Positions 2,959 to 15,956 of a DNA stretch of 64,000 nucleotides are shown piece after piece. Origin of the DNA: Oceanicola sp. 22II-s10i (lineage in GTDB: Bacteria; Pseudomonadota; Alphaproteobacteria; Rhodobacterales; Rhodobacteraceae); NCBI RefSeq assembly GCF_002210105.1, contig NZ_AQQU01000004.1, forward strand, positions 124,001-188,000. Reading direction: 5' to 3'. The notes beneath the pieces were generated by a model. That model was not told the DNA's origin, searched no databases, and worked only from the letters and a program-made list of their open reading frames with translations. The position numbers and the translations under genes were made by a program. Positions within the stretch are counted from its first letter, which is position 1. Each line of letters starts with the position of its first letter.

Positions 2959-3309
2959 TCAAACTGTCAGCGTGTCGACGTGTTCGCCGTTAATGAACAC
3001 ATCAATCATCGTGTAAGCAGAGAAGAACTTCTGCACAGCCGTAGCGCGCGCCATGACTTGCTGGCCGCGATAGCTTCCGGAGAACGATTGCGAGGAACCT
3101 CCGAAGGGCTCAGTTCGATCTCTGATCACCGTTTGACCGTTTATCTTAAGGACAAATTCAGCGTCAATCAGTCCGGGTGTTGCTTCGGCTTCAATTACAA
3201 GACGCTCGCCGCGATAGTTTGACGTTTCCGGCGCTGACTGTTGTGTGCACGCAAACAGCGTTGTGCTGAACAGCACAACAAAAACTTTCAGTAGTTTCAA
3301 ATGACTCAC
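2959..3309 (-). CDS. Small hypothetical lipoprotein
   Basis: 116 aa with an N-terminal signal peptide ending in a lipobox (LFAC, Cys21), so it should be lipid-anchored in the envelope. The mature part is predicted to be all-beta, with a Ser/Gly-rich loop around residues 70-80 (GGSSQSFSGSYRG). No family is recognised. It is transcribed leftwards and ends at the terminator at 2908-2934. Its place next to phage-like genes makes lysogenic conversion possible, but that is speculation. Confidence 0.6.
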   Translation of the reverse strand: MSHLKLLKVFVVLFSTTLFACTQQSAPETSNYRGERLVIEAEATPGLIDAEFVLKINGQTVIRDRTEPFGGSSQSFSGSYRGQQVMARATAVQKFFSAYTMIDVFINGEHVDTLTV

Positions 3310-3767: not shown

Positions 3768-5867
3768 CTACTGGTTGACGCCCAGCACGTTGAACGACCC
3801 AATCTGCTGGAAGGTTGTCAGGTTGTTGGACCCGATCTGCGCCACCGCAACCTCGTTCCCAGCACCGCCGCGAATGGTGCCGGAGATCCTGTTGAGCGAC
3901 CCTGACTGACGGAAGGCAAAGGCGTTGGCGTCGGAGTCGCCCGCACCGTCTCCTACCCATAGCTCGATCTCGTTGCCGGTGCCCGATTGGAAGATGTCTC
4001 CGGGAGTCAGAGCGTTGTTGGTCGCAACCACATCCGCAGTGCCGCCGCCCGTGAATCCCGCGCCGTTGTTGTCGGATCCGTGAATTTCGACCGTTGTCAG
4101 GTTCAGTGCGCCAGTCTGGCCGATGTTCAGCAGGTTTCCGTTGCCGCCGACCTGCCCGAGAATGGCCACGGTCGCGATATTGCCGCCGATCTGGTCCACG
4201 GTGACGATGTTCGTGTCGCCGGTGATGTCCACGGTCGACGCGTTGACACCATCCTGAGTGACGTCGACGTCGTTGCCCATACCGTCGCCGCCGAGAGCAC
4301 CGGCGATCGTCACCCCCGAAGTATTAAGGGACAGCAGCCCGCCAAGGCCGGTCTGATCGACAGTGATCAGGTTCGAATCCCCTCGCACCGAGACGATTGA
4401 ATCGTTGAAGCCTTCCTGGCTTACTGAGACAGCGTTATCGTTGCCGCCGCCAGCGCCGAGGATCCCGACTTCAGACGTGCTTTGTATAACCTGGTCGACG
4501 GTGACCCGGTTCGCGCCGCCGTCGATCCTTACGGTTGAAGTGTTGCTGGAGGTCTGTGTGATCTCGACCTCGTTGCCGTCCGAATTCGGGACAGCCGGTC
4601 CGCCGATCGTCACCAGCGAGTTGTTCCCCGTGCCGAGCAGACCGGTCTGGAGAACTGTCACCACGTTGTCGGATCCGGTATGAATGCCGATGCCCGACTG
4701 GTGCTGGTTGCCGGTCTGTTCGAGGAAGATCAGGTTGTCGTTGCCTTCGACATAGACCTCGGATCGGTTCTGATCGCCGCCCAGGGGGATCCCGACGACC
4801 ATCGGGCCCTGCAGAACGGTGACGTCGTTGCGATCGCCGAAGTAGACCTGCGTACTGGAATGGTTGGCGTCGCCGCTCTGGATGGTTCCGAGGGTGTTTC
4901 CATCGCCCATGATCACATTGAACCAGCCAATGTTCTCGTCGCCGGTTTGTGAGATGTCGGAAAAGTTGTCGTTGCCAAAAAGCAGCGCAGAGGTGTCGTT
5001 CAGATTGCCCATCTGGAGGGCTTCGGCCCAGTTTCCGTCACCTCCGTACATCTGGAAGGCGCCTTGGTTCCGATTGCCGAGAACGGAATAACTCAGCCTG
5101 TGCTGGCTTCCGTTCTGGTCCAGGGCAAAGAGGTTCCGATTGCCGGTCAGCCCGATGCTGGCAACGTTGTTTGTCCCGGTCTGGCGCAACGTGGCCTGGA
5201 ATGCGAGTGTGGTGGCGGGTCCTGTATCTGCGGACACGGCGAATGTGCCTACATCCCAGTTCGCGCCGTTTTGCCCGTTGGAGCCGTTGAAGTTACCGAC
5301 CTGATTCACATCGGCCGTGTTGCCGGAGCCGGTCTGTATCACGCCCAGCCCTAGAAAACCGGTATTGCCGATCATGTTGCGGCGCCCGTTCTGTTCCAGT
5401 GAAACCGAGTTCCCGGATGGCGTTGAGCCGTCATTGGTCTGCGCCACGCGCGTGACCAGGTTGAAATTCCCGCCACCCTGAATAACGGTCGCCTCGTTCT
5501 GAAGAACGACGGCGCCATCCTGACCCTGCTGCTGGAAGATACCGACCCGGTTCCGGTTGGTATTCTGTCCTATCACCGCCGCGTTGCGGTCGCCGATCTG
5601 ATCGACGCCCGGCCCAAGATCGCCGACAGCGTTGTTGTTGCCTGTCTGGGTGACGACAAGGTCGTTGAAATCGCCATCCTGCATCATCGCAAGGGAACCG
5701 AACAGGCCTGCGGTGTTCCCGTTCCCGTCCTGCTGTGCCACCGAAGCGGAGTTGTCAGAGCCCGACTGGACGAGGAACGTTTCGTTTTCGTCGCCCGCAT
5801 AGCCCGCAGCAGACATTCCGAGGGTCGCAAGTGCGACCGAAGCCATCAATTTCTGTGTCGTCTTCAT
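3768..5867 (-). CDS. Very long curlin-repeat amyloid subunit
   Basis: 699 aa from the ATG at 5867; an upstream TTG gives a less likely longer form. A Sec signal peptide (MKTTQKLMASVALATLGMSA...) is followed by GDENETFLVQSGSDN and then some 40-45 short units. Units of type Q-x-G-x-x-N alternate with G-D-x-N units, as in curlin repeats of CsgA/CsgB. E. coli CsgA is only about 150 aa, so this is several times longer. It ends FQQIGSFNVLGVNQ. It is the last gene of a five-gene leftward curlin operon and should be secreted through CsgG to the cell surface. No clear terminator follows. Confidence 0.9.
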   Translation of the reverse strand: MKTTQKLMASVALATLGMSAAGYAGDENETFLVQSGSDNSASVAQQDGNGNTAGLFGSLAMMQDGDFNDLVVTQTGNNNAVGDLGPGVDQIGDRNAAVIGQNTNRNRVGIFQQQGQDGAVVLQNEATVIQGGGNFNLVTRVAQTNDGSTPSGNSVSLEQNGRRNMIGNTGFLGLGVIQTGSGNTADVNQVGNFNGSNGQNGANWDVGTFAVSADTGPATTLAFQATLRQTGTNNVASIGLTGNRNLFALDQNGSQHRLSYSVLGNRNQGAFQMYGGDGNWAEALQMGNLNDTSALLFGNDNFSDISQTGDENIGWFNVIMGDGNTLGTIQSGDANHSSTQVYFGDRNDVTVLQGPMVVGIPLGGDQNRSEVYVEGNDNLIFLEQTGNQHQSGIGIHTGSDNVVTVLQTGLLGTGNNSLVTIGGPAVPNSDGNEVEITQTSSNTSTVRIDGGANRVTVDQVIQSTSEVGILGAGGGNDNAVSVSQEGFNDSIVSVRGDSNLITVDQTGLGGLLSLNTSGVTIAGALGGDGMGNDVDVTQDGVNASTVDITGDTNIVTVDQIGGNIATVAILGQVGGNGNLLNIGQTGALNLTTVEIHGSDNNGAGFTGGGTADVVATNNALTPGDIFQSGTGNEIELWVGDGAGDSDANAFAFRQSGSLNRISGTIRGGAGNEVAVAQIGSNNLTTFQQIGSFNVLGVNQ

Positions 5868-5891
5868 ATCGTTCTCGTTCAAATGTCCGCG

Positions 5892-5906
5892 TCCGGAAGG
5901 TCCGGA
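5892..5906 (-). other. Post-stop hairpin in curlin operon
   Basis: TCCGGA-CCT-TCCGGA begins immediately after the stop codon of the upstream curlin gene. It is the shortest of the series of such hairpins in this operon and may protect or process the mRNA. Confidence 0.5.
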
Positions 5907-7316
5907 TCAGTTCTGTATGATGCCCGCGATGTTGCCGGAGCCGTTCTGAACCACGTAGGCATTGTTAAATGAGCCGCCCTGCAGGAACGCCGCCTGGTTG
6001 TTGGTGCCGCCGCCCAGCACGACAAGGGTCGCGATGTTCCCGTCGCCGGTCTGCGCCGCCGCGACCAGGTTGCTGCTGCCGGTGATGTCGGCGCTGAAAT
6101 CGTTGCCGGCGCCGGTCTGCTGCAGGAAGCCTACGGTCAGGCCGGCGATGGCCGCGACACCCGACAGCCCCGCACCGCTGTTGTTGTTCGAGTCGCCTAC
6201 GACCGTGATGGCCGCGGTGTTCGTGCCGAACTGGGTGAGGTTGAAGAAGTTGGACGACCCCGTGATCGAGACGGAGGCTTCGTTGTCACCGCCGAGGCCC
6301 GTGTTGTAGCCCTGTTCGACGGTCACGTTGTTGAAATTGCCCTCGACATAGAAGCTCAGGTCGTTGGTGCCTTCCTGAATGCCCAGCAGGTCGTTTTCGT
6401 CGCTCTGGCCGATGATGGTGACGAATGCCCGGTTCGTGCCGATCTGGTCGATCCCGACGCGGTTTCCATCACCAAAGATGGTCGACATCGTCAGATCGTT
6501 TTCGTAGCCGTCCTGCCGGACGCCCAACTCGTTGCCGTCGCCGGCGATGGTCAGCAGGCCGACCGAGTTCATCCAGCCACCCTGGTAGATCCCGAAGCGA
6601 TTGAAGTTGCCCTGAATCGCCAGGTCCATTTCGTTCCCGTTCGCACCGATACCGTCATAGCCGGTATCCTGGATCAGGGCCGAAGAGGTCACGCCAGTCA
6701 CCAGTGCCGGGCCGGTCAGGCCGTATACCCCATTGAAATCGCCTGTGAAATTGGCGACGATCCGGTTTTCCTGAAACTGCTGGGCCGCGATCGACCGCTG
6801 CTGCAACAGCGCCAACACGTTGCCTTCGCCGTCCTGTGTGACGCTGGCGACCTGCCCCGGCATCGCATCTTCCTGGATCTGGTAGACGCGCGTGATCCGG
6901 TTGTCATTAAGGCCACCCTGGCGGATGATCAGGCGGTTCGCAGCGCCCGGTATTGCGCCAAGAGCGCTCTGAATGACTTCTCCAACCACGTTCTCATCGC
7001 TGCTCTGTTCGACGTCGATGAGGTTGTGGACGCTCGGAGTGGCCAGTTCGCCGTTCTGCTCCAGCCCGCTGCCCTCGGTGCCGATCTGGTTCCGGGCTCC
7101 GGTCTGGCTGATCGACAGCTGGTTGTAGTACCCGTTCTGAAGGGCTGCATCCGCTTCCAGCCCGACCTGGTTCAGCGAGCCGACCTGGTCGATCTGCGCA
7201 ACGTTGTCCGCGCCGATCTGGTCGATGAAGGCCACGTTGTCGTCCGCCGCAAGGACCGCCACCGGCAGAACGGCGGTGGTGATTGTCAGGATTGCGCGGT
7301 GGACGCGTAGGGTCAT
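5907..7316 (-). CDS. Long curlin-repeat amyloid subunit
   Basis: 469 aa. A signal peptide (to about AVLAA) is followed by DDNVAFIDQIGADN, the N-terminal signature shared by the other large subunits here. The rest is built of curlin-type units such as DQVGSLNQV, QTGARNQIG and QDGYENDLT, with alternating G-D-x-N units (TIAGDGNELG, IFGDGNRVG). It ends VVQNGSGNIAGIIQN, a variant of the common C-terminus. The gene is fourth in the leftward curlin operon, 72 bases after the one upstream. Predicted extracellular fibre component. Confidence 0.9.
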   Translation of the reverse strand: MTLRVHRAILTITTAVLPVAVLAADDNVAFIDQIGADNVAQIDQVGSLNQVGLEADAALQNGYYNQLSISQTGARNQIGTEGSGLEQNGELATPSVHNLIDVEQSSDENVVGEVIQSALGAIPGAANRLIIRQGGLNDNRITRVYQIQEDAMPGQVASVTQDGEGNVLALLQQRSIAAQQFQENRIVANFTGDFNGVYGLTGPALVTGVTSSALIQDTGYDGIGANGNEMDLAIQGNFNRFGIYQGGWMNSVGLLTIAGDGNELGVRQDGYENDLTMSTIFGDGNRVGIDQIGTNRAFVTIIGQSDENDLLGIQEGTNDLSFYVEGNFNNVTVEQGYNTGLGGDNEASVSITGSSNFFNLTQFGTNTAAITVVGDSNNNSGAGLSGVAAIAGLTVGFLQQTGAGNDFSADITGSSNLVAAAQTGDGNIATLVVLGGGTNNQAAFLQGGSFNNAYVVQNGSGNIAGIIQN

Positions 7317-7349
7317 GTCAGGATCCGTTTCCGAGGATCAGAATATGGT

Positions 7350-7381
7350 CCGGGCCCGCACGCGAATGGCGACGGGCCCGG
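7350..7381 (-). other. Post-stop hairpin in curlin operon
   Basis: A perfect 9-bp stem of CCGGGCCCG with CGGGCCCGG, with a 14-base loop, starts eight bases after the stop codon of the gene ending at 7389. No T-run follows on the minus strand, so it is more likely a processing or stability element than a full terminator. Confidence 0.6.
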
Positions 7382-7388
7382 CCGGGAC

Positions 7389-8591
7389 TTACTGAGACAC
7401 GGCGAGGTTGTTCGACCCGCCGCCGTTCTGCGAGAACGACGTCATGTTGGACGAGCCGACCTGAATGATCGCCGCCTGGTTCAGGTTGGATGCGCCAAGA
7501 TTGCCGACAAGGCCCGTGATGGTGTTGCCACCGCCGATCTGGGCAAAGGCGAACATGTTGTCGTTGCCCACGACGGTGTAGTCGATCGTGTTGCCGCTGG
7601 CCGCGAGCGCGGAGTCCTGAAGGATCGATCCCTGGGTCAGCTCGATGTGGCTGCTGACCAGCGTACCGGCATCTCCACTCATGGTGCCAACGCCGTTGTC
7701 TTCGCCCGTGAACGAGGCATTCAGCGCGTTGTAGCTGCCGGTCTGGGTGGCCCGGACATAGTTGCCGTCGCCGATCTGGTCGATATCCGCATCGTTCTGG
7801 GTCGAAGCGGCGGTCGACCCCTGATTGACGCCGGCATCGTTTCCGGTGCCGTTCTGCAGGATGTTCAGATAGTTGCCATCAGATCCCAGCATGTTGCCGA
7901 AGGCGATGTTCATGTTGCCGGTCTGACGGATGTCCAGCAGAGGCGCGTAGCCGTTGGACGGGATCTGGCGGTTGTTGCTGCCTTCGATCGTCGCGCTGGT
8001 CACAAGGTTCGTGTTGCCCGTCTGCAGGATGCGCAGGCTGGCAAACCGACCCGAGGTCAGTTCCAAGCGGTTGGCATACCCGTTGTCGTCGCCGATCATC
8101 GAAACGGACTGGATCGTGTTGTCGTTGCCGGACTGCTTGAGCACGGCCGAGTTCACGTTGCCGTCCTGCAGCACGGTTTCGATCGTGCCGCCACGCGACC
8201 CGTTGAGCGAGACCAGAAGGCTGTTGGTGTCTCCGAGTTGCTGGGCATCCTCCACCGTGTTGTTGTTCGACAGGTTGCCGACGGTGATGTTCATCCAGTT
8301 GCCGTTACCGATCTGCTCGGCCACGTTCACGTCGTTGTTGAAACGGTTGTTGTGGTTGTTGTTGGCCGAGCCATTGCTGAACCGCAGCTGGTTGTCGTTC
8401 CCGCGCTGCGTGGCAGGGTTCGACAGTGTGGCAAAGTCGTTGCCGCCGGGGCCCGCCGACTGGTCGATGGAGGCCGCGTTGTTGTTGCCGTCCTGTTCCA
8501 CGAACGCTTTGTTTGCATCGCCGGCAACGGCCATCGAGGCCATGAGGCCAAGTGCCGTGGAGGCGACAAGAACTTTCTTCATAGTACGCAT
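7389..8591 (-). CDS. Curlin-repeat amyloid subunit
   Basis: 400 aa. The signal peptide (MKKVLVASTALGLMASMAVA) is followed by GDANKAFVEQDGNNNAA. Asn is very frequent, including NGSANNNHNNRFNN around residues 75-90. Repeats of the form Q-x-G-x-x-N (EQIGNGNWM, KQSGNDNTI, LQNGTGNDA) continue to the end, SFSQNGGGSNNLAVSQ. Asn and Gln ladders of this kind stack in curli beta-solenoids. The start at 8591 is supported by GGGAAGGGAAG upstream; a second ATG lies three codons inside. Third gene of the leftward curlin operon. Confidence 0.9.
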   Translation of the reverse strand: MRTMKKVLVASTALGLMASMAVAGDANKAFVEQDGNNNAASIDQSAGPGGNDFATLSNPATQRGNDNQLRFSNGSANNNHNNRFNNDVNVAEQIGNGNWMNITVGNLSNNNTVEDAQQLGDTNSLLVSLNGSRGGTIETVLQDGNVNSAVLKQSGNDNTIQSVSMIGDDNGYANRLELTSGRFASLRILQTGNTNLVTSATIEGSNNRQIPSNGYAPLLDIRQTGNMNIAFGNMLGSDGNYLNILQNGTGNDAGVNQGSTAASTQNDADIDQIGDGNYVRATQTGSYNALNASFTGEDNGVGTMSGDAGTLVSSHIELTQGSILQDSALAASGNTIDYTVVGNDNMFAFAQIGGGNTITGLVGNLGASNLNQAAIIQVGSSNMTSFSQNGGGSNNLAVSQ

Positions 8592-8670
8592 TCAAGTCTT
8601 CCCTTCCCTAGACGGTCTCCCAACCGCCAAAACGAACGCTTGCGCGTTCAGAATGCCCCCGCCGCTTTGA

Positions 8671-8701
8671 CCGGGGCGTGTTCAATTGCACCACGCCCCG
8701 G
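8671..8701 (-). other. Post-stop hairpin in curlin operon
   Basis: A perfect 10-bp stem, CCGGGGCGTG with CACGCCCCGG, lies about 16 bases after the stop codon of the gene ending at 8718. The T-run beside it is on the plus-strand side, so on the coding strand it is not a standard terminator. Confidence 0.6.
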
Positions 8702-8717
8702 ATCTTTTTCGGTTGAT

Positions 8718-9746
8718 CTACTGAGAGATACCGGCGTTGTTGCCGTTGCCCGTCTGGGTGAAAGCGGCGACGTTCAACGTACCGATCTGGCTGACCGCAA
8801 CCTGGTTCAGATCGCCGGTCTGTGTGCCGGTGGCAGTGTTGGAGTCGCCGTCCTGGTAGAAGCCGAATTCGTTGTCGTTGCCGATCGTCTCCAGCGAAGC
8901 CACGTTGAAGTCGCCAAGCTGGGTCAGCGTTGCGGTCGCCACACCGACGCTATCGGCATCGGACCCGATCGAGAAACCGTCACGCCCGTTGAAGTTTCCG
9001 TTGAAAATAAGCGAGCCCGAGTTGGAGTTTCCAACCTGCAGCGTTGCCTCGACAAGGTTGTTCAGGCCGGTTTGCGAGGCCGTCAGGCTGTTGCCGACAC
9101 CGGTCTGGGTAACGATGAAGATGTCGTTGTTTGCGGCAACCTGATCGATGTCCACAAAGTTGGACGAGCCAGTCTGATAGATGCCGCGCGGGTCGGGATC
9201 GAAGCCGAGCGAGTTGCCCACCGTGTTGCGCTGAAACTGGCTGCCGCCCTGGTTCACCTGGATGACGTTCGCGGTGCCGGTGCTGCCGTCGCCGGTGTAG
9301 GTCTGGTTGATACGGCTCACCGCCGCGTTGCCGACCTGAACGAGAGTTGCGCTGTTCGTGGTATCGGTCGCGGTGCCGGTGGCGCCGGTCGACACCTGCT
9401 GAACTTCGTAGGCGCGGGCGCCGAATGATTGCGTGACGTCCAGCAGGTTGCGATCGCCAAGCTGGTCGAGGCCAGCGTTACGATGGCCATAGTTGCCGCC
9501 GGTGCCGACGGTGCCGTTGTGGTTCTGCAGGATGGTGATCTTGTTCATCGCGCCGTCCTGAACCGCCGCACCCGGACCGGTGCCGGAATCGCCGACCCTT
9601 GCGTTGTTGTCGAGCTGCGTGATCAGTGCCGTGTTGTCATCGCCGCTCTGCAGCAGGTACGCAGCATTGTTGTCCCCGGCAGCCGCAACGGATGCCATAA
9701 TCCCAAGTGCCGTCGACAAAAAAAGCGTGTTCTTGAAACCGTTCAT
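8718..9746 (-). CDS. Curlin-repeat amyloid subunit
   Basis: 342 aa, the shortest of the five large subunits. The signal peptide (MNGFKNTLFLSTALGIMASVAAA) is followed by GDNNAAYLLQSGDDNTA, the shared N-terminal signature. Repeats include DQLGDRNLL, TQTGVGNSL, SQTGLNNLV and TQLGDFNVA. The end, VAAFTQTGNGNNAGISQ, is nearly the same as in the neighbouring subunits. It is the second gene of the operon, with 114 bases and several hairpins between it and the first gene. Confidence 0.9.
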   Translation of the reverse strand: MNGFKNTLFLSTALGIMASVAAAGDNNAAYLLQSGDDNTALITQLDNNARVGDSGTGPGAAVQDGAMNKITILQNHNGTVGTGGNYGHRNAGLDQLGDRNLLDVTQSFGARAYEVQQVSTGATGTATDTTNSATLVQVGNAAVSRINQTYTGDGSTGTANVIQVNQGGSQFQRNTVGNSLGFDPDPRGIYQTGSSNFVDIDQVAANNDIFIVTQTGVGNSLTASQTGLNNLVEATLQVGNSNSGSLIFNGNFNGRDGFSIGSDADSVGVATATLTQLGDFNVASLETIGNDNEFGFYQDGDSNTATGTQTGDLNQVAVSQIGTLNVAAFTQTGNGNNAGISQ

Positions 9747-9827
9747 TCAAGTAATTCCCTTGCAGTCTGCAGTGCCATTGCACTGCTGTTTTCTGTTATG
9801 GACGCTCGCGCGTCCGGCTTTGCCCCA

Positions 9828-9853
9828 CCCGGCGGCCCTCGGAGGGCACCGGG
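9828..9853 (-). other. Post-stop hairpin in curlin operon
   Basis: A nested stem (CCCGG/CCGGG outside, CCCT/AGGG inside) lies within ten bases of the stop codon of the first curlin gene. Two further small stems follow in the same gap: GCAGTGC-AATG-GCACTGC and GGACGC-GCGA-GCGTCC as read on the minus strand. Confidence 0.5.
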
Positions 9854-9860
9854 CCCAGAT

Positions 9861-11207
9861 TTACTGAGAAATTCCGGCCACGTTTCCGCCGCCGATCTGA
9901 GTGAAGTTCGCGGCGTTCCCGTCGCCAACCTGCATGACGGCGGCCTGGTTGTAGGCACCACCGGCCGAGTTGTCCTGGCTGCCGACGATGGTGTTGCCCC
10001 CGGTCGCCAGGGAGGCGCCTTCCTGGTAGAAGGCAAAGACGTTGCCGGTGCCGGAGACGCTCATGGCGATCTGGTTGTTGGTGCCGATCTGTTCCATCAG
10101 GCCGGGCATCGTCAGGCCGACTGCGATGGCGTCGGCGCCGGTGAACGCGTTGTAACCACCGTTCTGGTCCCCGATCACATCCAGGCTCGCCACGTTGCCG
10201 GACCCGTTCTGGATCAGGCCGACGATGTTCTCCATTCCGGCGATGGTGCCCAGGTCGAGACTGTTGTCGGTCCCGGTCTGATGCACGCCCAGTTCGTTCG
10301 CGTCGCCAGTGATCAGGATGTTCACGGCCATGTTGCCCGTGCCGTCCTGGTAGAAGCCGAACTGGTTGCTGCTGGCATTCAGGATCGTCATCTGAACCGA
10401 GTTCCCGACACCGAACTGCTGGCTGCTCGCGTTGAACGCGCCCGCGGCTTCGGCTGCCTTGCCCGAGCTGAAGCCAGAGGTGCCATTGCTGTCCCCGGTG
10501 ATGCTCAGGATTGCACTGTGGCCACTGCCGAACTGTTCGACGGTATCGATGAAGTTGTTGGCGCCGACCTGCGAAATCGAAACCAGGCCGTCATCATTGT
10601 TCTCGGTGCTGCCACCGTAAACGTCGCCCTGCTGGACGGCGAGAATGGTGTTGCCTGTCCCGGATTGCAGTATCGTCGCGTCGTTGTTCCGACCAAGCTG
10701 TTCCAGCCGCTGGACATCGTTGCCGTCGCCGACCTGCTGGGTGATCGAGGCGATGTTCCCGTCAGCCGGATCGGTGATGTTGCCCTCGATGTCCTGGTTG
10801 ACGACGCCGATGAAGTTGTCGTCGGAACTCTGCATGATCGTCAGATCGTTGGACACGACACTGTGGAACGACGCGCGCTGCAGGATCTGCTTGGTCTCGT
10901 TGTCATTCCCGGACTGGGTGACGAGCAGCTTGTTGCGGTTGAACGACTGGTTGAAACCGTCGCCCGTGGCGCCGGCCTTGTTCCCGTTCCCGGACTGGAG
11001 GATGTCCAGCTCGTTGTTGTCGCCGTTCTGGCGCACGTTCCTCGCTGCGGTCCCGGCGGCGTTGCCGTTGCCGGACTGGACGATGCTTGCGGTGTTGTCG
11101 TCGCCGCTCTGGCTGAGGAAGGCATCGTTGTCATTCGCGGCGAAAGCGGGCGATGCAAGCAGGCCGATAGCGGTTGAGGCTGCGAGTGCGTTCTTCAAAA
11201 TCGTCAC
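9861..11207 (-). CDS. Long curlin-repeat amyloid subunit, first gene of operon
   Basis: 448 aa from a GTG at 11207, chosen because AAAGGAG lies nine bases upstream and because the protein then begins with a normal signal peptide (VTILKNALAASTAIGLLASPAFA); the longer frame to 11288 adds non-homologous residues. The mature part begins ANDNDAFLSQSGDDNTAS and continues with curlin units (VQSGNGNAA, LQSGNGNKA, TQSGNDNET). It ends NFTQIGGGNVAGISQ. Its promoter must lie in the 11208-11912 gap shared divergently with csgF. Predicted extracellular amyloid subunit. Confidence 0.9.
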   Translation of the reverse strand: MTILKNALAASTAIGLLASPAFAANDNDAFLSQSGDDNTASIVQSGNGNAAGTAARNVRQNGDNNELDILQSGNGNKAGATGDGFNQSFNRNKLLVTQSGNDNETKQILQRASFHSVVSNDLTIMQSSDDNFIGVVNQDIEGNITDPADGNIASITQQVGDGNDVQRLEQLGRNNDATILQSGTGNTILAVQQGDVYGGSTENNDDGLVSISQVGANNFIDTVEQFGSGHSAILSITGDSNGTSGFSSGKAAEAAGAFNASSQQFGVGNSVQMTILNASSNQFGFYQDGTGNMAVNILITGDANELGVHQTGTDNSLDLGTIAGMENIVGLIQNGSGNVASLDVIGDQNGGYNAFTGADAIAVGLTMPGLMEQIGTNNQIAMSVSGTGNVFAFYQEGASLATGGNTIVGSQDNSAGGAYNQAAVMQVGDGNAANFTQIGGGNVAGISQ

Positions 11208-11912
11208 TTCAAAGATCTCCTTTACGCGATCCGTTTTAAGTGTCCTGAAGCATTGGCTTTTCACGGCTCGCGAGATGCACAGGCGCACGAAATCAGGCCC
11301 GGAAAATTACCCGGCCATTCCCTCATGCATTCGGTCCTGTGATATCGCCGCGGGAGAAACTCCCAAGCTCAAGACAATCACGGCTACTGCCGAATAATAT
11401 CGTTGGGCGCGCCCAACTCCCCCCAAGAAATAAAATGCGTTTCCCAGCCCGTAGACTGGGGCGAAACTAAGGCGACTGGCAAGAGTTTCCTTGGGTAAGA
11501 CGCGGGGCGGGGCTCTGTCAGGGCCTTGTTATTGACTTCAAGTTCCTGATTTATATGAGCGATTCCCATTGTCCCCGTTTCGGCTCCAGTCGGGGCGGGC
11601 TGTTGAACGACGGATTCTCTACGTCAATAATCTGACACATTCTATCTATGCTGGCTGAATTGAAGTCTTAAAACCCTCATAGGTTGCATGTCTGCGGCTC
11701 TCGATTCGCATTCCCGAAAAATGGGGATTGGGCGGCAAGAATCACGTGAACCCACTGGGGATTCCTGCGAATTGCGCGACGAAACTGTCACATTTCGCCT
11801 TGAAGCACGATTCATGCCGATTCCGGTCTCGCGCTTTCCGGCCGACCATGTCACAAGGACGAGAGAATCCATCCGCTGACGTGCGGTGCTGGGTGGGAGA
11901 GGGACTGAACGT
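11208..11912. promoter_or_regulatory. Divergent curli promoter region
   Basis: About 700 bases without a convincing gene, AT-richer than the flanking genes, between the leftward curlin operon and rightward csgFG. It contains an imperfect inverted repeat around 11439-11467 (GTTTCCCAG...CTGGGGCGAAAC) and the octamer TGGGGATT twice (11721 and 11756). No csgD-like gene is present here, so the regulator is unknown. Both operons probably start in this gap. Confidence 0.5.
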
Positions 11913-12362
11913 ATGAAGGCACGGGTGTTTGCTTGCCTCGTCGCAATGGCCGGAGCGGCGCCGTCGCTCGCCGGGGATCTGGTTTATACTCCGATCAATC
12001 CATCTTTTGGTGGAAATCCATTGAATTCCTCGCACCTTCTCGGCCTCGCCAACGCACAGCGCGATGCCACTGCCGCTGATGCGAACGACGGAACATCGGG
12101 GACGGGGACGCCTGGACAGTCCGAAACGACGGATGCGGATCTCTTTGTCCGGCAGCTCGAGGGACGTCTGCTGTCCGCGCTTGCTGGGCAGGTGACCTCG
12201 GCGATCTTCGGAGACAACCCGCAAGACAACGGAACGGTTACATTCGGCACGACCACGGTCGCTTTCGAGCGGACGCTGGATTCGATCCGATTGGTGATCA
12301 CGGATTCCGTGGACGGGACGGTGACTGAAATTGTCGTGCCGCAACTCGTGACCGGAAGCTGA
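11913..12362 (+). CDS. csgF: Curli assembly protein CsgF
   Basis: 149 aa from the ATG at 11913. The signal peptide (MKARVFACLVAMAGAAPSLA) is followed by GDLVYTPINPSFGGNPLNSS. The N-P-x-F-G-G-N-P motif at the mature N-terminus is the hallmark of CsgF, whose N-terminal peptide plugs into the CsgG channel and couples secretion to nucleation on the surface. A helical middle and a beta-rich C-terminus follow. It lies 55 bases before csgG, with which it is surely co-transcribed. A start at 11886 is possible but would spoil the signal peptide. Confidence 0.93.
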   Translation: MKARVFACLVAMAGAAPSLAGDLVYTPINPSFGGNPLNSSHLLGLANAQRDATAADANDGTSGTGTPGQSETTDADLFVRQLEGRLLSALAGQVTSAIFGDNPQDNGTVTFGTTTVAFERTLDSIRLVITDSVDGTVTEIVVPQLVTGS

Positions 12363-12417
12363 CGACAATACCCATCAAGCAAGACATGCAAGAATACAGG
12401 CGAATATAGGACATACG

Positions 12418-13470
12418 ATGAACGTGTCATTCCCAATTCGGAAGGCAAGGTATCTTGCATTGGCCGCCGCTCTGGTCGCCACCGGCGGCTGCGCCAACAT
12501 GGAATCCACATTCTTCGACACGGCTGAACCGACGCTTGTCACGGTAACGCCGCAGAACCTTGCGCTCCGGAACCTGCCTGCACCGAACCGCCGGATGAAC
12601 ATCGCGGTCTATGATTTTCCCGACCTGACCGGACAGTACAAGGAACGCGATGCGGTCCAGTCGCTGTCACGCGCTGTGACCCAAGGCGGATCTGCCATGC
12701 TGATCAAGGCTTTGCAGGACGCAGGCGAAAGGCGCTGGTTCACGGTTCTCGATCGATCCGGCCTTCAGGATCTCGTCCGGGAGAGGCAGATCGTCACCGA
12801 AATGCGCCGTCAATACCGGAACGAGGCGCAGGTCAACCCCTCTGCTCTGAAGCCGCTTCTGCATGCCGGCATCCTGCTGCAGGGCGGGATTGTCGGGTAC
12901 GATACGAACGTGCAGACCGGGGGCGCCGGGGCGCGCTACCTCGGCATCGGCATGGATGGCCGGTGGATCCTGGATACCGTAACGGTCAGCCTCCGCGCCG
13001 TGTCGACCGAAACCGGCGAGGTTCTGGCTTCGGTCATGTCGCAGAAGTCCGTGGCATCCTCGTCGATCCGCGGCAGCGTTTTCCGCTATGTCATGCTCAA
13101 TGAACTGCTGGAGATGGAAGCGGGCGTTACGGCGAACGAGCCAAAACAGATCGCGGTTCAGCAAGCCATTGAGAAGGCTGTCTATTCTCTCGTGATAGAA
13201 GGCGCTGAACTGGGCGTCTGGTCGTTCAAGGACAAGTCTGCCGGGGCGTCGCTCATCGGCCGGTATCGCGGCGAGAAGTACGGGGCGAACCTGCCGGAAA
13301 CGGCGCGGTTCATCGTGCCGCCGAAGACCCGTGGCGCCGCTGACATCACACAGACCGTGCCCTATTCCCGGCCCGCGCCCAGAGCGAGCGTGCGTCAGCT
13401 TCCGCCCACGCAGAGCCAGCCGGACGTGCCGAAGCCGCCTGCGGCAGGGGATAACGAAGTCGTAGGCTGA
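12418..13470 (+). CDS. csgG: Curli secretion channel lipoprotein CsgG
   Basis: 350 aa with a lipobox (ATGGC, Cys25). The diagnostic segment NIAVYDFPDLTGQYKERD at about 61-78 and RRWFTVLDRSGLQDLVRER after it match CsgG, the nonameric outer-membrane pore that exports curlins. The protein is about 70 residues longer than E. coli CsgG owing to a Pro-rich C-terminal tail (after about 300). The constriction loop after GQYK reads ERDAVQSLS, without the Tyr and Phe of the E. coli eyelet. It lies between csgF and two curlin-like genes. Confidence 0.95.
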   Translation: MNVSFPIRKARYLALAAALVATGGCANMESTFFDTAEPTLVTVTPQNLALRNLPAPNRRMNIAVYDFPDLTGQYKERDAVQSLSRAVTQGGSAMLIKALQDAGERRWFTVLDRSGLQDLVRERQIVTEMRRQYRNEAQVNPSALKPLLHAGILLQGGIVGYDTNVQTGGAGARYLGIGMDGRWILDTVTVSLRAVSTETGEVLASVMSQKSVASSSIRGSVFRYVMLNELLEMEAGVTANEPKQIAVQQAIEKAVYSLVIEGAELGVWSFKDKSAGASLIGRYRGEKYGANLPETARFIVPPKTRGAADITQTVPYSRPAPRASVRQLPPTQSQPDVPKPPAAGDNEVVG

Positions 13471-13581
13471 CGCGTCTTTCATGTCGCCCTGATTTCATGC
13501 CGGATGGTTTGCGCGAATTGAAACAATAGGTCTCCAAACCATCATATTGGTGATCTTCAATTACCTCATCTGAACCACATT

Positions 13582-13599
13582 CCTGCCACGTCTGGCAGG
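13582..13599 (+). other. Hairpin between csgG and the next curlin gene
   Basis: CCTGCCA-CGTC-TGGCAGG is a perfect 7-bp stem with a tetraloop about 50 bases upstream of the start at 13649. No T-run follows. It may reduce read-through or stabilise the downstream message. Confidence 0.45.
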
Positions 13600-13648
13600 C
13601 AATCTCGGATCAAGGCGCCGCTGAATGGCGCGATCGGAGGCAGTTCAG

Positions 13649-14119
13649 ATGCGTATCAAGGCGAAAATCGGCGTTATTGCAGTTCTTCTGGGATTGACGG
13701 CTCCGGCCAATGCCACCCCCAGCGACGATAATTTCCTTTCGCTGATGTCCACGGATATCAGCAACACCCTGCAAATCATCGAGGAAACGCAGCCGGCCGG
13801 CAACGCCATGGTCGTGACGGTCGAGGGAACGCGCAACGGTGGGTTCGGCTCCGACTGGCTGCTGCCGGATCTGTTCGGCGGGTTCGCGGCGCCCGGTACT
13901 CTGACCCAGATCGGCTCGCATAACGTCATGGCCCTGGAAGTGCACGGGACGGAGAACATGTTCAGCCTGTTCCAGAGCGGTATGAACAATATGGTTGCCG
14001 GCTATATTTCGGGCACCGGAAACTCCGCTGCGGTGATGCAGGTCGGTAACGGAAATGTCGCGCATTTCAGCCAGATCGGGACGGGAAATTCTTTGGCAAT
14101 ATCGCAGAGCTCGTGGTAA
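13649..14119 (+). CDS. Short curlin-like subunit (CsgA/CsgB type)
   Basis: 156 aa from the ATG at 13649, which has GGAGG eight bases upstream. A signal peptide ends near PANA. Residues about 30-85 are not repetitive. The last 70 residues carry four to five curlin units (TQIGSHNVM, FQSGMNNMV, MQVGNGNVA, SQIGTGNSL) and end LAISQSSW. The size and position beside csgFG resemble the classical minor or major subunits. The large non-repeat N-terminus suggests a nucleator or anchor role, which is inference. Confidence 0.82.
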   Translation: MRIKAKIGVIAVLLGLTAPANATPSDDNFLSLMSTDISNTLQIIEETQPAGNAMVVTVEGTRNGGFGSDWLLPDLFGGFAAPGTLTQIGSHNVMALEVHGTENMFSLFQSGMNNMVAGYISGTGNSAAVMQVGNGNVAHFSQIGTGNSLAISQSSW

Positions 14120-14123
14120 AAAG

Positions 14124-14145
14124 CCTCGTCCGATACGAGGTTTTT
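14124..14145 (+). promoter_or_regulatory. Terminator-like hairpin that contains the next gene's ribosome binding site
   Basis: CCTCG-TCCGATA-CGAGG followed by TTTTT lies directly after the stop at 14119. The right arm contains GAGG, the only Shine-Dalgarno candidate for the ATG at 14151. The element could therefore both attenuate transcription and mask translation of the next curlin-like gene. Confidence 0.6.
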
Positions 14146-14150
14146 AGATC

Positions 14151-14795
14151 ATGAAATTTCGCCATATAACCTATGTCATGTCCGCGATCGCGGTATTTCA
14201 GATCGCCGCGCCAGTTCATGCTGGCAGCGACAACACCCTCGTCATCCTGCAAGAATCGACCGCGGGCGCATTCGGTAATACCCTGACGGTGGATCAGTCG
14301 CAGGCATTCGGTTCAACCATAGCGGGCAATGAGCAGGGCACGGCTCCTGCGGTCCAATCCGGGTTCGGCAACAATGCAACCGTCACGCTGGAGGGGGAAG
14401 GCGCCAACGTTGTGCTTCTGCAGTCCAATCCCGCAATTGACGGCACAGCAGCGGACGTTAACAGCGCAAACCTCAGCGGCGGGGCTCTGACCAGCATTCT
14501 CGTCAACCAGAACGGTATCGGAAACTTTGGCGATGTCGATGTCTTCGGGGTGGGTGCCTCGGGCACGCTGGTACAGAATGGCAATGGCAATTGGGGTTCG
14601 GTGGACGTTCTGGGCAACGGGGTGTCGGGCTCGCTCAACCAGAACGGCAATGACAACGAGCTGGGCATTCAGGTGTCCGGCAGCGCAGGGACCTCGGTCA
14701 CCTACATCCAGAACGGCAACGGGCTGACGGCCGCCACGCTTCCGCAGGTCTATTCGAACGGCGGAACCGTTACGATCACGCAGACAACGAACTGA
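14151..14795 (+). CDS. Curlin-like repeat protein
   Basis: 214 aa. The signal peptide ends near PVHA, followed by GSDNTLVILQES. Repeats are more diverged than in the large subunits and use V-D-V and Q-N-G steps (LVNQNGIGN, LVQNGNGNW, LNQNGNDNE, YIQNGNGL). The C-terminus GGTVTITQTTN lacks the common GISQ ending. It follows the 13649 gene after an attenuator-like hairpin and precedes csgH by 11 bases. Probably a minor or specialised curli subunit. Confidence 0.78.
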   Translation: MKFRHITYVMSAIAVFQIAAPVHAGSDNTLVILQESTAGAFGNTLTVDQSQAFGSTIAGNEQGTAPAVQSGFGNNATVTLEGEGANVVLLQSNPAIDGTAADVNSANLSGGALTSILVNQNGIGNFGDVDVFGVGASGTLVQNGNGNWGSVDVLGNGVSGSLNQNGNDNELGIQVSGSAGTSVTYIQNGNGLTAATLPQVYSNGGTVTITQTTN

Positions 14796-14806
14796 GCGTT
14801 GTCGCC

Positions 14807-15166
14807 GTGTTTCGCCGCTGCGCCTTATTGCTCGGGATGCTTGTGCCCGCGCCTGCATCAGCCGCTTCGGGCATCCCGGAAATCGACGTGATTCCAACCG
14901 AAACCGGATATGAGGTTTCCGGCCGTGTCCTGGGCACATCGGACGGTGTCGTGAGCGCGCGCCTCTCGATCATGAAATCGGACAAGTCCGGGCAGATGAA
15001 CACGCAGCAGGGCAAGACGGTCACGACCAGCGCAGGCAGCGACAACGTCATCGGCCGGGTCAATCTGTCGGCTGGCCCCGATGCGAAACTCGACATCGTG
15101 CTCAGCCTCGAGGTCGATGGCCGGGTCGAGGCCGAAGCTACATTCAGATTGCCCGGCGCGGACTGA
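14807..15166 (+). CDS. csgH: CsgH-like curli assembly protein
   Basis: 119 aa, GTG start 11 bases after the previous stop. The signal peptide (LLLGMLVPAPASAAS) is followed by an all-beta domain of about 95 residues (IPEIDVIPTETGYEVSGRV...). This fits CsgH/CsgC, a small immunoglobulin-like periplasmic protein that keeps curlins from forming amyloid before export. Alphaproteobacteria carry CsgH rather than CsgC. Position in the curli operon supports the call. The active Cys pair of CsgC is absent, as expected for CsgH. Confidence 0.75.
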   Translation: MFRRCALLLGMLVPAPASAASGIPEIDVIPTETGYEVSGRVLGTSDGVVSARLSIMKSDKSGQMNTQQGKTVTTSAGSDNVIGRVNLSAGPDAKLDIVLSLEVDGRVEAEATFRLPGAD

Positions 15167-15191
15167 GAGCCGGGACCAAAGGGGGGAGACC

Positions 15192-15956
15192 ATGATGCCG
15201 ATACGATCCACGATTGCCGCTCTTGCAACGGTGCTTGCGCTTGGCGCGGCCCCGGCTGTGCAGGCGCAGTCCGTGCAGGAATTCGTGAAAGCGTTTTCCG
15301 GTCAGTGGTACGTGTTCGACCCGGCCTATGCCAGTGCAAAGGATCCCTGCGCAATCTCCCTCGAAGACACGGGCGAGGGCGAGCCCGTCCGCTACAAGGC
15401 CGCGTCCAGCAACTGTGTCACACCGGTGTCCGGTCTGAAGAAATGGTATATCGACGAGGGCATGCTGCATCTTCTGGACGCGTCGGACTCAGTGATCATC
15501 CGGCTCGGCGGGAACCAGAGTCGGATCACCGGTGAAATCGAGGGCACGCAACGCGCGGTGATCGTAGAGCGTGCGGCCGGCAGCCAGGAAACTGCCGCGC
15601 TGGCCGAGGCCATTCGCAAGCATCGCTGCATCTATGTCGGCTTTACCTCGGACTGCGCCAAGAAAGAGGATCTGGCAGAACCCGCGATGACCGAGGACGG
15701 GGGCGTCTATGCCAGTGTCGGGATCGTTGCGCGGATGAATGTCCGCAGTCAGCCCCGCAGCGACGCAACCGTCATCGGCGTTCTGAACGAGGGCATCTGT
15801 CTCAAGGTCAATTTCTGCACCACCGCGTCGGATGGCATCTGGTGCCGGGCCAGATTTGGCGAGGATGCCGGTTGGGTCCGCAAAACCGCGCTGCGCCAGT
15901 CAGAATGGCCCGTGATGACCTTTGCCAATTCCTGCTCGGACGCTGCAGGCGGCTGA
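15192..15956 (+). CDS. Periplasmic protein with Inh/AprI-like and SH3 domains
   Basis: 254 aa from the first of two adjacent ATGs after GGGGGGAG. The signal peptide ends at VQAQ. Residues about 27-125 (FSGQWYVFDP...CAISLED...C...GLKKWYIDEGMLHLLD) resemble the beta-barrel of protease inhibitor Inh/AprI. Residues about 175-240 (GIVARMNVRSQPRSDATVIGVL...GWVRKTAL) are a bacterial SH3 domain. Lying 25 bases after csgH, it is probably the last gene of the curli operon. It may protect secreted curlins from proteases or bind the cell wall; both are inference. Confidence 0.7.
   Translation: MMPIRSTIAALATVLALGAAPAVQAQSVQEFVKAFSGQWYVFDPAYASAKDPCAISLEDTGEGEPVRYKAASSNCVTPVSGLKKWYIDEGMLHLLDASDSVIIRLGGNQSRITGEIEGTQRAVIVERAAGSQETAALAEAIRKHRCIYVGFTSDCAKKEDLAEPAMTEDGGVYASVGIVARMNVRSQPRSDATVIGVLNEGICLKVNFCTTASDGIWCRARFGEDAGWVRKTALRQSEWPVMTFANSCSDAAGG

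Follow-up and report, generated by a model that had tools for sequence, protein, structure and literature searches.

Curli are a model of useful, controlled amyloid. Which kind of curli system is encoded where five large and two short curlin-type genes lie beside csgF and csgG, and what sets it apart from the systems already described? The question is raised by positions 3768-15956 of a stretch of 64,000 nucleotides from Oceanicola sp. 22II-s10i (contig NZ_AQQU01000004.1, positions 124,001 to 188,000), which as a whole is called the window here. As judged from its genes, this is a real curli locus of a known kind, and a conserved extra gene, encoding a protein with an Inh-like and an SH3 part (Inh-SH3), makes the subtype a variant. 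With good confidence, we read it as an alphaproteobacterial CsgFG+CsgH curli system without CsgE, in which long subunits would stack, the short curlin S164 would be the seed, and Inh-SH3 would be a dedicated factor. The genes of the locus are the following (lengths in amino acids, aa; E, expectation value).

3771..5867, minus strand: large curlin A (A699), 699 aa from ATG, Pfam Curlin_rpt E 4.6e-37
5910..7316, minus strand: large curlin B (B469), 469 aa, Curlin_rpt match; in a 7-row tree group, SH-aLRT (Shimodaira-Hasegawa-like approximate likelihood ratio test) 99
7392..8591, minus strand: large curlin C (C400), 400 aa, Curlin_rpt match; in a 5-row tree group, support 98
8721..9746, minus strand: large curlin D (D342), 342 aa, Curlin_rpt match
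9864..11207, minus strand: large curlin E (E448), 448 aa, Curlin_rpt match as a 449-codon stretch
11886..12359, plus strand: csgF, PF10614 E 1.8e-27, CsgF chains of the PDB E 3.7e-5
12418..13467, plus strand: csgG, PF03783 E 9.5e-57, CsgG of the PDB E 1e-52
13625..14116, plus strand: short curlin S164, 164 aa, Curlin_rpt E 5.9e-9, CsgB-like candidate nucleator
14151..14792, plus strand: short curlin-like S214, 214 aa, Curlin_rpt E 0.002, under the cut-off
14807..15163, plus strand: csgH, 119 aa, NF041112 57.9 bits (cut-off 35), amyloid-inhibiting chaperone family
15192..15953, plus strand: Inh-SH3 two-domain protein, 254 aa, exported-looking, PF06347 SH3_4 25.6 bits (cut-off 24.1)

All open reading frames of the arrangement that an earlier note on this DNA had described are present. 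The minus strand has frames of 704 (699 from ATG), 469, 400, 342, and 475 (448 from ATG) aa between 3768 and 11288, and the plus strand has frames of 164 and 214 aa between 13625 and 14795. csgF and csgG sit between the large-curlin and the short-curlin group. The seven curlin-type genes, csgF, and csgG of that note stand, while csgH and the Inh-SH3 gene had been overlooked. Neighbouring genes of the minus array are 39-126 base pairs (bp) apart and those of the plus array 11-154 bp, which is consistent with two divergent operons, of which the minus array would be one. A scan of the locus gave 6 promoter-like sites (3.1 expected) and 7 terminator-like sites (11.9 expected), which are not used as evidence.

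The curlin nature of the subunits is carried by several lines of evidence. Six of the seven curlin-type proteins in the window pass the Curlin_rpt cut-off (20.7 bits), and the 214-aa protein reaches 18.4 bits. The motif QxGxxN occurs 17 times in A699, 11 times in B469, 13 times in C400, 12 times in D342, 17 times in E448, and four times each in S164 and S214; 1000 shuffles per protein gave means of 0.09-0.98, and the counts of all seven proteins exceed the shuffle maximum, in S214 by a narrow margin (4 vs 3). Under the looser pattern G-x-x-N, S214 lies within its shuffles (5; shuffle maximum 8) and the other six lie above theirs. When a profile was built from 10 long curlins, it hit two solved ones, 8c50 (E 3.9e-39) and 8enq (E 9.8e-6). 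With csgF and csgG alongside, these results bear out the proposal of a curli system with long curlin-type subunits.

Both the CsgG pore and CsgF, by which a curli system (type VIII secretion) is recognized, are found at the locus. csgG is the single CsgG match in the source genome and has a lipoprotein-like cysteine at residue 25 (by eye). No match to CsgE was found in the source genome or in any of the other csgF-bearing genomes searched with it (0 of 14, one of them 82% complete). This absence does not disqualify a curli locus of this type, because PMC3521004 reports csgE as lacking in Alphaproteobacteria; it also reports csgH. CsgE was also considered as a marker of loci that have no Inh-SH3 gene and was rejected on the same count of 0 of 14. 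The csgH family profile matches CsgC (1.5e-6) and CsgH (9.7e-4) in the PDB, and csgH lies under the cut-off of Pfam PF21112 (13.4 bits vs 27). The cysteine/disulphide pattern separating CsgC from CsgH in PMC4838910 was not found in it, no cysteine being located outside the signal peptide. That same paper shows CsgH to be an inhibitor of amyloid formation.

How might such long subunits be built? After the signal peptide, 49 strands are predicted in A699 (counted by us in the element list of the model), which corresponds to ~24-25 two-strand repeats, and the protein contains 29 strict N-x-psi-x-psi-x-Q kernels. The 40-45 units that had been given for this longest subunit count half-repeats and give way to ~24-25. 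The A699 model, based on an alignment of 10 of the 70 large curlins, reaches a mean predicted local distance difference test score (pLDDT) of 74 and a predicted template modelling score of 0.72. We infer that the large curlins fold as long beta-solenoids that stack into the fibre. For the long beta-solenoid subunits proposed in the earlier note, the sequences and the profile match to solved curlins speak in favour; the fold search with A699, the one of the seven window curlins that was modelled, gave no significant solenoid match and speaks neither for nor against them. The N-termini of the subunits resemble Sec signal peptides (by eye). At the other end, the last residue is Q in 56 of the 70 large curlins, and the end module of S164 finds its best match at the C-terminus in 60 of the 70. 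The large curlins of the source genome have a common C-terminal module, which may be the growth or seeding end.

The two short proteins differ in kind. S164 matches the NCBIfam CsgB model with E 5.7e-8 and 32.6 bits, far under the equivalog cut-off of 165; its length is 156-180 aa in 17 aligned rows (chosen from 29 matches), and the alignment shows it to consist of a leader followed by the C-terminal module with which most large curlins also end. Most likely, S164 seeds fibre growth as a CsgB-like candidate nucleator. In S214, of whose 26 matches 25 were aligned, degenerate repeats recur with a spacing of ~22 residues and have invariant Q/G/N; the protein is a second fixed, small, curlin-like part of the locus. 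An apparent S164-S214 fusion in locus L066 (13570-14868) was rejected, as its frame crosses a run of N (X in the translation) and the join is therefore not sequence evidence. Once the fused 419-aa row is excluded, the large-curlin count of L066 is four, not five; the row is nevertheless among the 70 used for the C-terminal comparison and for the tree.

For comparison, 34 csgF-bearing loci were collected, window included (33 of them with csgG; five stretches repeating named loci were removed). A scan of genomes with the window's CsgG gave 24 loci, which lean to this CsgG subtype, and further stretches added to these; the loci are not independent events, and some are close kin. Large curlins, defined as at least 280 aa by motif (degenerate ones may be missed), number from 0 to 5 per stretch, with five in the window, Szabonella alba, and Pseudaminobacter soli; these counts are minima because flanks end at ~10 kilobases (kb) and some contigs sooner. 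Within the window's genus, a close CsgG is present in 3 of 22 genomes (two more have a weak match, 28% identity), and curlin repeats occur in 2 of the 21 other genomes. A 993-aa curlin is encoded at L078:8236-11214 in a genome of the same genus.

The source genome itself holds two further large curlins away from csgG, O656 (656 aa, L009:5521-7488) and O437 (437 aa, L010:8807-10117), which brings its total to seven. In a quick maximum-likelihood tree of the 70 large curlins (451 of 2125 columns; one 419-aa row from L066 is no large curlin), B469 groups with six other rows, five genera in all (7 rows, SH-aLRT 99), C400 with curlins of Szabonella, Devosia, Pseudaminobacter, and one further genome (5 rows, 98), and O656 with two other rows (3 rows, SH-aLRT 100). 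No two curlins of the source genome are drawn as a pair. The tree is support rather than proof because of long branches, uneven letter make-up, quick-tree warnings, and poor repeat alignment. It supports the placement of at least three of the seven large curlins in classes common to several genera, and the view of the subunits as old and distinct. Such inter-genus classes favour, without proving, a multi-component fibre. Relatives of A699 that are 40-41% identical over nearly the full length occur in Oceaniglobus and P. nanhaiensis. The stretch examined in P. nanhaiensis DSM 18065 (L044), a cultured marine relative, encodes two large curlins together with S164, S214, csgH, and Inh-SH3. In pairwise comparisons with P. 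nanhaiensis, the ratio of nonsynonymous to synonymous substitution rates (dN/dS) is 0.28-0.40 for A699, B469, S164, and S214, 0.37 for csgH and Inh-SH3, and 0.17 for csgG, at dS of 0.81-1.45. These values support several distinct subunits that appear to be under purifying selection. The tree group of O656 lies within the csg array in Szabonella and in genome G012, and genome G011 (L079) has a lone curlin resembling O437, in whose vicinity there are relatives of two genes located close to O656 in the source genome.

What does the additional gene encode? The N-terminus of Inh-SH3 is signal-peptide-like (by eye), and its C-terminal part passes PF06347 SH3_4 and misses PF08239 (25.7 bits, cut-off 27). 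The AlphaFold2 model has a mean pLDDT of 90.3. In a profile comparison, residues ~34-129 align with Omp19, a protease inhibitor (E 7.7e-8), which is also the sole Foldseek match of the model under E 0.001 (E 2e-5).

The gene occurs in 26 of the 34 csgF-bearing loci, on either side of csgFG (L059, L062, L066); four of the eight loci that have none (L034, L041, L055, L067) end at a contig or stretch end. A profile search recovered csgH in 21 of these 34 loci, with L078 representing the locus L047, and seven loci have Inh-SH3 and no recognizable csgH (L036, L054, L056, L061, L063, L064, L065). Among 248 genomes of the family (11 best Inh-SH3 candidates per genome scored), CsgF is present in 12 and full-length Inh-SH3 in 7 (8 places), with six genomes having both. 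All eight full-length matches are in csg loci, one of these being truncated (genome G034). The other matches listed lie at profile position 128 or beyond, comprising the SH3 part and some linker, and reach at most 39.3 bits, against at least 260 for full-length ones; proteins with the SH3 part only are common in the family. The co-occurrence of CsgF and Inh-SH3 (Fisher p 2e-8) is partly circular, because the profile was built from csg loci that include those of the six shared genomes. The informative part of the count is the 236 CsgF-negative genomes, which have one full-length match, in a csg remnant.

This remnant, in G034 (L077:7457-9275), has Inh-SH3 beside a csgH region and an S214 tail; no csgF match was found in the genome and no csgG match in the 19-kb stretch. 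The csgH region is in frame behind another piece, which seems to resemble an oxidoreductase. A broken copy of Inh-SH3 was considered for G034 and rejected, the frame being open for 257 aa and the flagged TGA its natural end. When the single window protein was compared with 72,556 plasmid records, two Inh-SH3 matches were obtained, one of them near full length (89%), in Aureimonas sp. AU20. There the gene follows csgH, is annotated merely as an SH3 domain protein, and lies 6 kb from the best CsgG among the 54 plasmid records with a CsgG match; the other 53 have no full-length Inh-SH3 match. From this gene company, Inh-SH3 is judged to be a dedicated accessory factor of the CsgE-less curli subtype. 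Among the papers listed, judged by title and the opening of the abstract, no publication tying the gene to curli was found, most subscription journals lying outside the coverage.

Several observations weigh against the reading proposed here. No match of the A699 model to the PDB falls under E 0.001 in Foldseek, the best being an alginate lyase (E 0.0077). N22 is the N-terminal leader of E. coli CsgA; in all seven large proteins of the source genome the strand motif begins at residue 24-28, so that the mature large curlins start directly with repeats and have no N22-like leader. A699, D342, E448, and O437 belong to no tree group with support of at least 95, and D342 branches without resolution in a group that also contains E448 and O437. 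The N-terminal part of Inh-SH3 reaches 24.0 bits with PF02974 Inh, just below the cut-off of 25. Four loci (L039, L040, L042, L043) have ~5 kb or more of flank and yet no Inh-SH3 gene. In a class-wide sample of 385 genomes (threshold E 1e-25, up to 7 candidates per genome scored), six CsgF-positive genomes lie over the cut-off, and Inh-SH3 was found in the source genome alone. With five of these six having no match at E 1e-25 (a divergent copy is possible), universal presence of Inh-SH3 was rejected; its absence from some loci and subtypes makes it a subtype marker and not a universal part. In a csg locus on a Limimaricola plasmid (short CsgF, csgH present), the gene after csgG (L087:6845-7360) is annotated as invasion associated locus B family.

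Other explanations have to be set against the same data. The large curlins may form separate homopolymers under different conditions, with one pore in common and no mixed fibre; two of the seven are remote from the locus and might have a regulation of their own, and many related loci show just one to three large curlins in the stretch examined. We consider this possible and somewhat less probable than not, as five large curlins stand in one tight array with gaps of 39-126 bp and one C-terminal module is common to those of the source genome. The large proteins might instead be adhesins with repeats, or secreted solenoids of another kind, and not amyloid curlins. Such a reading would fit the long degenerate stretches between their motifs and the Foldseek hits listed for A699, which are largely beta-helix proteins (lyases, tailspikes, autotransporters), none significant. 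Given the Curlin_rpt matches, the curlin motif, the match to solved curlins, and the linkage to csgF, csgG, and csgH, it is very improbable.

Inh-SH3 could also be a neighbour kept by regional inheritance and no part of curli. It accompanies csg genes across many genera and on either side of csgFG, it is retained beside csgH in the truncated G034 locus, and it stands with csg genes on the Aureimonas plasmid, all of which makes a mere neighbour unlikely, even though Inh-SH3 is absent from other curli subtypes, SH3-part-only proteins are common in the family, and most loci were picked by likeness to the window's CsgG, so that common ancestry would by itself favour a neighbour.

In the CsgE-less system with long stacked subunits, the subunits would carry Sec-type signal peptides (by eye), CsgH would keep them unfolded in the periplasm, and they would leave through the CsgG pore with CsgF as partner, as inferred from the respective families. 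S164 would then seed growth, and the large curlins, by homology to solved curlins, would take the form of long beta-solenoids that build the fibre by stacking. Inh-SH3 might act in the periplasm, where it could protect the long subunits from proteases while they are unfolded, or could keep the export site in place at the cell wall. A more specific proposal is that Inh-SH3 takes the place of CsgE where CsgG opens to the periplasm; the Inh barrel would guard or hand over the unfolded giant curlins, and the SH3 domain would anchor the protein to the cell wall. We put this forward tentatively and regard it as rather doubtful.

Regarding the surroundings, L011:1046-12221 contains genes for a phage head and tail (portal, terminase, tape measure, and a head protein with protease); this stretch lies directly upstream of the window and reaches just into it, ending at about window position 221. 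The guanine-cytosine content of the phage stretch and of the curli region is below that of the remaining window. A small lipoprotein-like gene (by eye) at window 2962-3309 adjoins the end of the large-curlin array; it has no Pfam match over the cut-off, and a tblastn search of the 38 other stretches gave none either.

E. coli CsgA has a length of ~152 aa, according to PMC3521004, and the present system makes CsgG export of unfolded chains more than four times that length testable. The same holds for mixed polymers in natural curli and for which protein, if any, replaces CsgE, a role for which Inh-SH3 offers a concrete candidate. Makers of protein materials, too, have an interest in long curlins.

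Among known systems, long subunits and many copies are not new. PMC3521004 reports up to six csgA/B copies and subunits of up to 529 aa and 22 repeats, and the survey PMC10192328 gives a range from 4 to 62 repeats, with as many as 30 copies in one genome. The novelty attached to subunit length and copy number in the earlier note was therefore overstated, long, multi-copy curlins being reported in these two papers and in PMC12822426. A record in length or copy number was likewise rejected in view of 62 repeats and 30 copies per genome in the survey, and one relative has the 993-aa curlin. With the long degenerate CsgA of that AlphaFold survey, for example from Roseovarius indicus, the subunits described here have their length and insertions in common, and they add subunit classes common to several genera, which the accessible portion of the survey does not treat. 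The system of PMC12822426 is alike in gene set, absence of CsgE, several csgA/B copies, and long subunits, as far as its available text goes; the Inh-SH3 gene is present here and absent from the gene lists in that text. Inh/Omp19 protease inhibitors resemble the N-terminal part of Inh-SH3 in profile and fold, with Pfam Inh just under its cut-off. Here, by contrast, this part shares one protein with an SH3 domain, and its gene is linked to those for curli. E. coli curli (csgBAC, csgDEFG) share CsgG, CsgF, curlin repeats, and a CsgC-like chaperone (here csgH) with this locus. In contrast to them, the source genome has no CsgE match, no N22-like leader, an extra Inh-SH3 protein, and seven large subunits (five encoded in the locus) together with two fixed short ones.

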